Source: Rhizomicrobium sp. (GTDB lineage: Bacteria > Pseudomonadota > Alphaproteobacteria > Micropepsales > Micropepsaceae). From it: DNA of 64,000 nt. This document shows, in pieces, positions 35,701 to 61,763 of the stretch. The stretch is taken from the NCBI GenBank assembly GCA_037200045.1, contig JBBCHM010000003.1:1-64000 (forward strand), read 5' to 3'. The position numbers and the translations under genes were made by a program. The notes under the pieces are model-generated. The model saw only the letters and a list, made by a program, of their open reading frames with translations. It ran no database searches and was not told the origin of the DNA. Within the stretch, counting starts at the first letter, position 1. Every line of letters starts with the position of its first letter.

Positions 35701-36081
35701 TCAGGATGCCATGTTGAGATGCGCGGCAATTCCGATGGTGACTGCCAGCTTGTCCTGTGCCGGTAGCGATTTGGCCTTTGGAATATAGTCGAGGAGTTCC
35801 CGCAGGAATTCGTCGGAAACCCGACAAGCCATCTTGTGTTTTCTGGGCAGATCTCTTCTTTGGATGACCCGCGACAGCGAGATATAGCTCATTTCACGCG
35901 AGAGGCCGGGGCAACGATGCCTTGGGAGTTCGAAATCGAATGGATAGCCATCGCTGCAAACGAATAGATGCAACCCAGCATGGGCGTCGACGCAAAGATG
36001 GTATTTGAAGCTTCCGCCGTCGTCGCCCGGATTCACGACATCTTCAGTCCAGAAGCCCACGACGTCCCCAACGCCGAACAT
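35701..36081 (-). CDS. candidate toxin partner of the Panacea antitoxin, family not recognised
   Basis: A 126-residue protein whose ATG overlaps the stop of the Panacea-domain gene (TGATG), so the two are tightly coupled. The N-terminal 70 residues look rich in beta strands (V-G-D-V-V-G-F-W, F-K-Y-H-L-C-V, L-H-L-F-V-C, S-Y-I-S-L-S-R-V-I), a pattern reminiscent of the SH3-like barrel of MazF/PemK/ToxN toxins. The C-terminal third is helical. I see no confirmed toxin signature. A GTG one codon upstream is an alternative start. The base composition is clearly less GC-rich than its neighbours, suggesting transfer. Confidence 0.65.
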   Translation of the reverse strand: MFGVGDVVGFWTEDVVNPGDDGGSFKYHLCVDAHAGLHLFVCSDGYPFDFELPRHRCPGLSREMSYISLSRVIQRRDLPRKHKMACRVSDEFLRELLDYIPKAKSLPAQDKLAVTIGIAAHLNMAS

Positions 36082-36653
36082 CACACGCTATGGCGAGAGA
36101 TGTAGATCAAGTTCTCGACCTGCTCGTCATTGGCGCCGAGAAGCTGCATCTTGATCTGTGCGCGCTCGGCATCACCGCGACGCTTCCAAGCCTCTTCATA
36201 AGCCGGGTCTTGATGCGTTAAGCGCCGTATCTGACTGAAGTCGAGCAACTGCACCGTTCCTGCGGCTTCGTTGAGCAGCTCCATGTCGGTCTCCGACAGA
36301 AGTTGTTTGTTTGCCTTTCGGCGTGCGCCTATGAACTTCTGGATTTTCGGGTTATCGCGGTCCGGCACGGAAATCCATGGACGCTCCTCACCGAACTCCT
36401 TCTTGAAATCGAAAGTCGGTTTCAACGCGTCATAGGTGAATGACGGCACCGGCCCATCCTTCAGCGCGTAGTAGGTATCGAAGGTGACCGGGCGTCCGTA
36501 CCGCACAAGGTGGGACTTGTCCGCCAGAAACACCGATTTCACGATATCGTACTGTGAAAACCCGACGAAATTCTCCAGAATATAGAGGATGCTTTCGACG
36601 ACCTTCCGTTTGTCGACTTTAAGGGTCGGAAACTTGTCGGGGTTGGCTTTCAT
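36081..36653 (-). CDS. Panacea-domain (SocA/DUF4065-like) antitoxin
   Basis: A 190-residue protein whose central part fits the Panacea domain: F-S-Q-Y-D-I-V-K-S-V-F-L-A-D, the R-Y-G-R-P-V-T-F-D-T-Y-Y-A-L segment, and K-D-G-P-V-P-S, which match the L-x-Y-x-x-D, G-x-P-I-x-x-x-x-Y-x-A-x-x-x-G-P-V pattern of this family. Panacea proteins neutralise many unrelated toxins encoded beside them. The ATG at 36653 has GGTGA upstream; a GTG at 36662 is possible. The gene comes first in the pair, as is usual for antitoxins, and shares the low GC of its partner. Confidence 0.75.
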   Translation of the reverse strand: MKANPDKFPTLKVDKRKVVESILYILENFVGFSQYDIVKSVFLADKSHLVRYGRPVTFDTYYALKDGPVPSFTYDALKPTFDFKKEFGEERPWISVPDRDNPKIQKFIGARRKANKQLLSETDMELLNEAAGTVQLLDFSQIRRLTHQDPAYEEAWKRRGDAERAQIKMQLLGANDEQVENLIYISRHSV

Positions 36654-36857
36654 CGAGTTCACCGGCGCAGCTAGGGGCGAGGACGTGCGCTGCGGAAATA
36701 TCGCACGATTCCGACGCTCCGGGGAGTTAAGCTCTGCGCCGTCCCGTTTGAAAGCGTGGCGGATGGTACCGATTTGACCGCCCGCACAGATTGCACTTGC
36801 CCTTCCCTACAATCTTGTTCTAGTTTTGTTCCGGACAGGTTTTGGGACGGAGAGACG

Positions 36858-37436
36858 ATGACGAACCACACTCCCCGCGGCGTTGCGGCCCTGGAAGCCG
36901 TGCTGGAATCCGCGCAGGAGACCGCGCGCAAGAGCCTCGAACTGGCCCAATCCATCAGCCGAAAAGAAGATGATGCCGGTCAGGACCTTGCCTATAACCG
37001 GGCCATCGCCTTCATGAAGGTGAGCGCCAAGGTCGGCATGGCGCTGGCCAAGCTCAAGGGCGAGCACACCAGCAACGTGACCATCTGCCGGACGGAGGTT
37101 CACGCACCGCCGGCCCGCATCGGGCCGCCCCGCCCGCGCGCCGTAACGCCGCAAAGACCGGTCGAGAGCCTCCAACGCGCCGACCGCACCCAGCAGATCG
37201 TCGAGACCTGGATGAAGGCGCACGGCATGAAGGACGGCGACGACTGGCCGGTGCTGTATCCCGATCCGGAGGAAGACGACGCGGACGACGGCGTGCCGGA
37301 CGACGCTGGGGAGGCAAGCATCGGCCGGGACAGTGCCGTGGACCGGACTGTCGCGCGGCAGGGCATCGAGGGGCAGGGTGCCGAAGGGGAGGGGGACACC
37401 CCTCAAAATTTCGGGGGTTCGAATAGCGGAAAATGA
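36858..37436 (+). CDS. helical protein of unknown function, first gene of a two-gene module
   Basis: A 192-residue hydrophilic protein with GGAGAG eight bases before the ATG. Residues 5-75 are predicted helical by eye (A-L-E-A-V-L-E-S-A-Q-E-T-A-R-K-S; F-M-K-V-S-A-K-V-G-M-A-L-A-K-L-K-G). The middle is arginine- and proline-rich, then R-T-Q-Q-I-V-E-T-W-M-K-A-H-G. An acidic, disordered tail of about 60 residues ends the protein. Its stop overlaps the start of the next gene (ATGA). I do not recognise the family. It lies between the toxin-antitoxin pair and a MerR regulator. Confidence 0.7.
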   Translation: MTNHTPRGVAALEAVLESAQETARKSLELAQSISRKEDDAGQDLAYNRAIAFMKVSAKVGMALAKLKGEHTSNVTICRTEVHAPPARIGPPRPRAVTPQRPVESLQRADRTQQIVETWMKAHGMKDGDDWPVLYPDPEEDDADDGVPDDAGEASIGRDSAVDRTVARQGIEGQGAEGEGDTPQNFGGSNSGK

Positions 37437-37660
37437 CCCAGGCCTCGCCCTGCTCCGAGCCCCGCAAGCGCGGCCGCCCGCGCCAGCACCCGCCGAAGCT
37501 GCCATCACCGCGCGGGCGCGGCGCCCAACCCGGCAACCAGAACCGCCGCCGCCACGGGCGGTATTCGGAGGCGATGCGAGCGGCGAAGGCGGCGCTGAAG
37601 GACGAGATCGCAAAGATCGAGGCGCTCGTGGCGGGCGTCTGCGCAGCGGATAGCTCGTAA
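37433..37660 (+). CDS. small basic protein with a G-N-Q-N-R-R-R-H-G-R-Y-S motif
   Basis: A 75-residue basic protein. The N-terminus is K-R-G-R-P-R-Q-H-P-P (AT-hook-like G-R-P core). The centre is G-A-Q-P-G-N-Q-N-R-R-R-H-G-R-Y-S, followed by an alanine/lysine-rich helix. The G-x-P-x-G-N-x-N-x-x-x-H-G-x-Y motif recurs in many small uncharacterised alphaproteobacterial proteins, and a second copy of it is at 61479-61763 in this window. Coupled to the preceding gene by ATGA. DNA or RNA binding is a guess from charge. Confidence 0.65.
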   Translation: MTQASPCSEPRKRGRPRQHPPKLPSPRGRGAQPGNQNRRRHGRYSEAMRAAKAALKDEIAKIEALVAGVCAADSS

Positions 37661-60658: not shown

Positions 60659-61482
60659 TCATGGCGCGGCGGCCTCCTGCCCCAGGACCTGCTCGTGCCG
60701 CGCGACGATCTTGGGCCACAGCGTCGCGGTCTCCGGTACATCTAGCCTGAAATCCTCGCGCAGGGTGGCGACGAGATCGTCGGCGTTTTCGAGCACGCGG
60801 TCGGTGTAGCCCGCCGGCGTGATCGTGCGCAGGACGCGGCCGCGGAGCAGCCGTACCGTGCCGCCCGGCCTGTGCGCGAAGCAGAACAGGTTCAGCACGA
60901 AGTGCGAGTCCGGCGCGGTCTGAAGCTCGGCGCAGCGGCGGCGAGGCGCGTCTCGTCGGCGGGATCGAGGTGGAAATCGAAACTCGGCGCGGCGCCGTTC
61001 GGGTGGCTGCGCATCCGCCACCACGCGCCGTCGGCGCGCGACAAGTTGAAGACATAGCCATTCGAGGCGAAGTCGCCCGGCACGACGCGGATCGGTTCGA
61101 GCGGCCCGTCGCCGAAGCCGACATCGGCGAGATATGTCCCCTCCTCCAGTTCGACCTTGAGCACCAGGTGATTGGCCTCCACCGCCGCGCCGGCGGCTTC
61201 GCGCATCACCGCGCCGGTGGCGCGCGTCGCGCGGAAGCCGAGTTCGCCGAGCGCCCAGCCGAGAATGCCGTTCATCTCGTAGCACCAGCCGCCGCGGCGG
61301 CGGTTCACGATCTTCTCGTAGATCGCCGGCCGCGCGATGGTGACGGGCCGGCCGAGCTGGACGTCGAGATTCTCGTACGGGACGGCCAGCATGTGGGCGC
61401 GATGGACCTCGGTCCGCCCCGCCAGCGTCGGCGGTGGGCGATGGTCGAGCCCGATGCGGGCGAGATAGGCGTCGATGTTCAT
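60659..61482 (-). pseudogene. nat: arylamine N-acetyltransferase, broken by a one-base deletion
   Basis: The NAT catalytic triad is visible: cysteine in R-R-G-G-W-C-Y-E-M-N, histidine in E-A-N-H-L-V-L and aspartate in Y-L-A-D-V-G-F-G-D-G. One base appears to be missing near 60945; the frame moves from D-E-T-R-L-A-A to C-A-E-L-Q-T-A-P-D-S-H-F-V-L. Corrected length is about 274 residues, normal for bacterial NATs, which transfer acetyl from acetyl-CoA to arylamines and hydrazines. The ATG overlaps the stop of the upstream HG-motif gene (ATGA). Confidence 0.85.
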
Positions 61483-61763
61483 GAATGCCCCTCCAGATCG
61501 GCGGCCAGAACCCGCATCAGCCATTCGAAGGCGCGGATGCCGTCATGCAGGTATTTGGCGTCGCGGGAATAATAGCCGTGAATGCGACGGTTCTCATTGC
61601 CGGGCTGGCCGCCGCGGCGGCGTTTCAGCTTCGATGCGAAAATGCGGTTCGATTCGCGCGGATCGCGCTCAAACGCCTGGACGTATTGGCGAACCAGGCT
61701 GGATATCGAATCGGGCGAGAAGGCCGGCGATCCCGGCACCAATGTCGAGATGCCGTTCCTCAT
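61479..61763 (-). CDS. small protein with a G-N-E-N-R-R-I-H-G-Y-Y-S motif
   Basis: Up to 94 residues. The part I trust, about residues 18-94, runs from S-I-S-S-L-V-R-Q-Y through R-R-R-G-G-Q-P-G-N-E-N-R-R-I-H-G-Y-Y-S to a helical end. It shares the G-x-Q-P-G-N-x-N-R-R-x-H-G-x-Y-S core with the small protein at 37433-37660, in otherwise different context. Its stop overlaps the NAT start by four bases. The 5' end overlaps the opposite-strand gene starting at 61750, so either start may be misplaced; a GTG at 61739 is an alternative. Function unknown. Confidence 0.6.
   Translation of the reverse strand: MRNGISTLVPGSPAFSPDSISSLVRQYVQAFERDPRESNRIFASKLKRRRGGQPGNENRRIHGYYSRDAKYLHDGIRAFEWLMRVLAADLEGHS

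Follow-up and report, generated by a model that had tools for sequence, protein, structure and literature searches.

A little-studied two-gene unit of Rhizomicrobium pairs a helical protein with a small relative of phage terminase small subunits

What kind of system is encoded by two small overlapping genes that lie beside a putative toxin-antitoxin pair in a 64,000-nucleotide stretch of Rhizomicrobium sp. DNA (the window)? A sequence-only reading of this stretch had described two genes overlapping by ATGA, the second encoding a basic 75-residue protein with GRPR and an HG motif, and had proposed that their products are oppositely charged. All of this is borne out by the open reading frames at 36858-37436 (A) and 37433-37660 (B). 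The pair, the nucleotide elements at its junction and the adjoining genes are as follows.

36858..37436, + strand: gene A, 192 aa; a helical hairpin at residues 9-67, followed by a VTxxR segment and a disordered acidic tail.
37433..37660, + strand: gene B, 75 aa; one long helix preceded by a basic arm that carries GRPR and RGAQPGNQNRRRHGRYS.
37386..37404, + strand: G-tract/C-tract GGGGAGGGGGACACCCCTC, preceding the junction motif.
37416..37424, + strand: junction motif GGTTCGAAT, located within the 3' end of A, with 8 nt separating it from the start codon of B.
36081..36662, - strand: Panacea/SocA-domain antitoxin-like neighbour, outside the pair (Pfam PF13274, E 8e-16).
35701..36084, - strand: 127-aa ORF, candidate toxin partner, overlapping the Panacea gene.

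Both A and B behave as coding genes, as judged by their low dN/dS against the orthologues in another genome (G028). The ratio for A was 0.25 over all residues, 0.10 for residues 1-85 and 0.50 for the tail, and that for B was 0.36, as compared to 0.86 and 0.88 in the two wrong frames of B; these values indicate purifying selection on both genes. The net charge of A is -9 (-10 in residues 86-192) and that of B is +10 (+11 in residues 1-45), the sequence of B including GRPR and GAQPGNQNRRRHGRYS. The AlphaFold2 model of A as a single chain (mean pLDDT 69, pTM 0.38) has two confident helices at residues 9-32 and 39-67, mostly above 90, a weaker helix at 104-121 and a low-confidence tail, while the model of B (pLDDT 77, pTM 0.42) consists of a low-confidence arm and one helix spanning residues 33-74. 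The earlier description of A as a helical protein with an acidic disordered tail therefore holds in this genome but not in general, since the strongly acidic tail is absent from several A proteins (alignment A3; L010).

Direct searches assigned neither protein to a family. For A there was no match in PHROG, no plasmid match by tblastn, no Foldseek match of the AlphaFold2 model at E≤0.001, and nothing reaching any curated cut-off in Pfam or NCBIfam. Window B passed no curated cut-off in Pfam, had no NCBIfam match at E≤10 and gave weak matches in PHROG (best 0.043) and by tblastn (17 plasmid and 4 phage records at E≤1). Pfam and NCBIfam searches revealed no catalytic domain in either protein, and a reading of the pair as a defence system was discarded, as neither A nor B had a PADLOC match at E≤0.1.

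The two genes recur together. Searches with single sequences covered 61 genomes, the window's own and those of 60 relatives, and detected A in 9 and B in 23 of them, all of one genus. With the A profile, 37 loci came to light, distributed over 24 of 69 genomes searched in this genus. In a sample of the class (385 genomes of 276 genera, with at most nine candidates per genome scored) the profile found A in four genomes, all of this genus. On the segments examined it gave 68 matches below 1e-3, and none on the same segments reversed. The counts for A loci cover 31 of the 37, and because loci were de-duplicated by 120 nt only, close relatives may remain among them. An HG-type B lies just downstream in 26 of the 31, which confirms the co-occurrence expected from the window. 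In 25 loci it carries GNxN..[HT]G on the same strand (including L179, with TG), and the 26th (L160) has the variant PRNCN..HG. Elsewhere A is followed by GNRN without HG (L182) or by a short helical partner without the HG motif (L171, L172, L174 and L176). At L031, near a contig end, A and B are joined in one open frame (A-profile E 3.1e-5); similar one-frame arrangements read by eye in L060, L064, L094, L108 and L047 were dropped, the A profile giving them no support.

Many B matches, on the other hand, have no detectable A, and HG-module small proteins are present in both alphaproteobacteria and Chloroflexi. At five B loci (L042, L046, L066, L073 and L101) a divergent helical partner, G2, was found, which matches alignment A3 by profile (2.6e-5, score 36.4 versus at most 17.2 in 60 shuffles) but gives no match to A6. 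The window itself holds a second HG-motif ORF (61479-61763, - strand, 94 aa) with no detectable A, and a near copy of it occurs at G000:C1:1547241 (L004), where the ORF next to it is duplicated as well. One further copy of A, again followed by a B, was detected by profile in the window's own genome. The end of this paralogous B is doubtful because its dN/dS beyond codon 60 in the paralogue pair is 2.68; probably the real end lies before the stop of the ORF, or the ORF overlaps another gene. A-B is a fast-evolving, little-studied two-gene unit that recurs in divergent sequence.

The reach of this unit extends to plasmids. Eleven plasmid records contain a match to an A-like protein (A'), and in six of the nine opened (H34 and H35 were left out) a gene annotated as "hypothetical protein" is followed by one for an "HGGxSTG domain-containing protein" (B'). 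The six hosts are Sulfitobacter sp. W027, S. indolifex, Pseudosulfitobacter, Microvirga lotononidis, Microvirga sp. VF16 and Methylobacterium; the Haematobacter, Microvirga terrae and one Sulfitobacter faviae record have no annotated HGGxSTG gene after the A' match; the gene tables of the plasmids are incomplete. Profile-profile comparison by hhalign gave E-values, each applying to one pair, of 3.8e-6 for A and A' (score 43.6 versus at most 15.4 in 100 column shuffles and 17.5 reversed) and 2.3e-11 for B and B' (59.4 versus 16.5 and 14.0, respectively), and the A profile matched single A' sequences weakly (best 0.0012). The plasmid pairs share with A-B the gene order and either close spacing (6 nt apart) or a 4-nt overlap, as in Sulfitobacter sp. 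W027 (K3759_RS18900/RS18895) and Methylobacterium sp. FF17 (OF380_RS28235/RS28740). They differ in that B' keeps a Cys-rich CGAKTRxGxPC...CRMHGG part lacking in window B, and in that many A' proteins have a VTVEHVHV.GGQA segment in place of the acidic tail. The HGGxSTG family model NF041373 matched the three plasmid B' proteins scanned and neither window B nor any of 19 B proteins of the genus. By profile similarity and shared order, these "hypothetical + HGGxSTG" pairs are distant homologues of A-B.

A second relationship of B is with the small subunit of phage terminases (TerS). An alignment of four TerS-type sequences, one of them annotated as TerS, matched B by hhalign at 4.9e-6 and B' at 1.3e-19, both without shuffle controls. 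Its members are two HG proteins whose genes immediately precede a terminase gene (one from an Acinetobacter plasmid, one from Pasteurella phage Pm86), the halovirus HGTV-1 protein named terminase small subunit, and a Geobacillus phage GBK1 protein that bears another name and has no terminase seen beside it. In a sample of 19 B proteins, 11 matched the NCBIfam TerS model NF040601 at E≤1 (best 3.6e-4), and 9, 8 and 2 matched the PHROG TerS families 1889, 509 and 9231, respectively, at E≤0.1 (best 0.0016, 0.0014 and 0.012); the NF040601 cut-off of 120 bits was reached by neither window B nor its relatives. The common element is a GAPKGNKNALKHGIYS-type module, which B shares with HG-type TerS proteins (NF040601; HGTV-1 gene 3; Pm86 ORF53, annotated as hypothetical). 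By these alignments, B is a carrier of the phage TerS HG module. TerS proteins of this type have ~200 residues, as opposed to the 75 of window B, and the large terminase gene follows immediately in Pm86 and after one intervening gene in HGTV-1, whereas none adjoins window B. The opinion that neither protein resembles a known family thus fails for B, and the concern that the motif might be a fragment of a larger known protein proved partly justified, the motif being common to TerS and HGGxSTG proteins. A split TerS, with A as the rest of the protein and B as its HG module, was rejected, since the scores of A (7.9) and A' (10.2) fell within 60 shuffles each and A has no similarity to the part after the HG motif in the four-sequence alignment.

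The reading that we prefer, and hold tentatively, is that A and B would be the halves of one small nucleic-acid-binding complex. The helical hairpin of A (with the acidic tail in this genome) would pack with the helix of B, and the basic GNxN..HG arm of B would contact DNA (or RNA) in the TerS manner. The complex would probably recognise the junction motif, GGTTC[GA]A[AT]T, and thereby control its own expression, and some dispersed copies of this motif may be further sites. This reading draws on the coupling of the genes, the one-frame form at L031, and the matches to the plasmid pairs and TerS; the absence of similarity of A to the rest of TerS and the empty Foldseek search with A speak against it.

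The distribution of the nucleotide motif bears on this proposal. GGTTC[GA]A[AT]T occurs in the 200 nt upstream of the B motif at 28 of 77 B loci in the discovery set and at 7/7 later loci, a set collected with the A profile and restricted to loci with a readable B motif. Dinucleotide shuffles gave means of 0.72 and 0.02 (largest 4 and 1) for the two sets, and other windows of the same loci contained it in 10 of 1835 and 0 of 86 cases. At A loci the motif tracks the HG-type B: it is found at 23 of 26 loci with, and 0/5 without, such a partner, although these five may be related and do not count as five events. The case for a recognised site is built on the later loci, this contrast, the uncommon codons described below and the excess of dispersed copies in genomes with A. 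Against it stand L166, L179 and L180, with an HG/TG-type B and without the full motif, and 49 of the 84 unique B loci without a motif within 200 nt, including every Chloroflexi and viral locus counted. The tract that precedes the motif in the window is less constant, with G-runs or C-runs at its position in many relatives, not all.

In 33 of the 35 loci the motif lies in the sense direction, a bias compatible with action in mRNA or in DNA. It is in the frame of B at 26 of the 33 sense loci, spelling V-R/Q-I/M/L with codons that are uncommon in six window genes (GTT, 10/139 Val; CGA, 5/191 Arg; ATA, 3/81 Ile). Other motifs encode G-S-N in the frame of A, with codons that are not uncommon (TCG, 24/78 Ser; AAT, 13/40 Asn), a point against the preferred reading. 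B and the motif are in different frames in the window and in G028. Its conservation across reading frames suggests selection on the nucleotides themselves.

This selection could also operate in the message, the motif serving translation coupling or ribosome binding at the B start, in which case A-B itself would not have to bind the motif. We regard this as rather unlikely, if the most serious competitor. The near-uniform orientation and the prevalence of the B frame are in its favour, as is the position of the motif, which begins 22-49 nt before the RG codon at 21 of the 33 sense loci and has its end overlapped by ATG in L016 and by TTG in L014. The out-of-frame motifs of the window and G028 do not fit, nor does the distance in the window, where the motif ends 8 nt before the ATG, and the same ten bases are dispersed at places where no B is seen. 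Structure at the junction is not conserved either: no consensus pairs were found among relatives, and the single Rfam match among 20 sources fell short of the gathering score, so that a structured RNA was rejected. The motif fits the consensus of the tRNA T-arm loop, a candidate that was dismissed because most of the pieces compared have A or G in place of the closing C; for the dispersed copies, ARAGORN found no tRNA in 19 own-genome stretches holding them. Two further observations concern the DNA in front of HG proteins. In L043, L064 and L094 the junction motif or the GTTCGAAT core occurs twice before B, 63-75 nt apart, and a TAGAACA..TGTGCTA-like near-palindrome, resembling an SOS-type operator, precedes the Chloroflexi HG proteins at L075, L076, L086, L087, L092, L093, L095 and L105.

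The genomic surroundings bear on a different proposal. Preceding the pair in the window are holB-, tatD- and MBL-fold-like genes, and its neighbours are the MBL-fold gene, the Panacea pair, a MerR/TipAS gene and a mazG-like gene (holB, tatD, MBL-fold and mazG being names from reading of the ORFs). The Panacea domain of the 36081-36662 protein scores 59.4 bits over a cut-off of 25.7; the NCBIfam SocA equivalog is not reached (13.1 of 190 bits). Panacea is described as an antitoxin domain paired with many toxins (PMC8832971). The region 35701-36662 has the corresponding layout of Panacea (PanAT) systems, the domain with an adjacent small overlapping partner gene, whose 127-aa product has no match in Pfam, NCBIfam or PADLOC and is possibly an undescribed toxin. 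The sequence-only reading was thus correct in placing A-B beside a toxin-antitoxin-like pair, but not in treating the latter as its context. A-B follows the same MBL-fold gene in three other genomes (G028, G022 and BS750m-G3, L059), with mazG behind it in G028 only among the syntenic stretches examined, and none of these three stretches has SocA, the 127-aa partner ORF or MerR at E≤1e-4. From these sites the pair appears to be inherited at the MBL-fold position, and the toxin-antitoxin genes beside it seem to have been added locally; a functional link between them was rejected on this ground.

Could A-B itself be a type II toxin-antitoxin-like module, in which A, as the first gene and with its acidic tail, neutralises the basic B? 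Its gene order and ATGA overlap, as in a small overlapping two-gene operon, the opposite charges and the patchy multi-copy distribution would suit such a role, and known toxin-antitoxin genes lie near five of the nine plasmid loci, a count uncontrolled for their background frequency on plasmids. We nevertheless consider this improbable, since neither protein has a toxin or antitoxin family match above cut-off in Pfam, NCBIfam or PADLOC, the Foldseek search (of A alone) is likewise empty, B resembles a terminase module rather than any known toxin, the two are fused in one ORF at L031, and the pair is retained at one chromosomal site.

The dispersed copies of the motif raise a further alternative. 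The string GGTTCGAATR occurs 22 times in the window's own genome versus 2 in reversed controls, some copies lying in extragenic hairpins or behind terminator-like sequences and others in coding-like genes (by eye), and 26 times versus 3 in G022, where many copies are intergenic and some tandem. Over 41 genomes the count is 345 versus 206, with a mean excess of 7.6 in genomes with A (n=15) and 0.96 in those without (n=26; p 0.013, kinship uncorrected). The G022 copies belong to a longer repeat of their own and may be unrelated to A-B, which counts against including them as sites of the complex. This repeat, approximately gcgaatttttcgGGTTCGAATGncgcgaaa...gcaag...GCGTGGAYARG, is dispersed and mostly intergenic, at times tandem at 93-105 bp (L129-L134, L140, L141 and L144 in G022; L112 in the own genome), and has no Rfam match above threshold. 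Separately, a perfect 12-bp inverted repeat, CATTCGAACCGC-AAAGC-GCGGTTCGAATG, lies near a gene end at G000:C2:555653-555681 (L124).

RAYT transposases maintain or move REP sequences, and by analogy A-B might maintain or move the dispersed GGTTCGAATR copies. The excess in the two genomes, the tandem pairs in G022 and the tracking of the excess with A would be in keeping with this. It is nonetheless hardly probable: no catalytic domain was matched by A or B, several of the 22 own-genome sites lie inside ordinary-looking coding genes, and the excess over the genus sample is modest. Least probable is a phage-packaging relic, with B a leftover TerS domain that merely persists: the TerS homology agrees with it, but both genes are under purifying selection and the pair is kept at the syntenic site in four genomes, the own included.

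Returning to the preferred reading of A-B as a self-regulating nucleic-acid-binding complex, a bolder extension, which we think unlikely, is a chromosomal two-protein system derived from a phage-packaging recognition module that would recognise the motif at its own junction and at some of the ~20 dispersed sites. Our searches found no described counterpart of a sequence-specific genome-marking or regulatory system of this type. The literature search found no paper containing HGGxSTG, the core strings or the model names, no description of the pair in the titles or abstract openings of the terminase papers listed, and nothing on TTCGAA with extragenic palindromes; the junction motif GGTTC[GA]A[AT]T is new here. 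The link of the HG protein to a constant partner gene and a conserved nucleotide site makes an unnamed hypothetical pair testable. Overall, the results suggest a reuse of the phage terminase recognition part on both chromosomes and plasmids.
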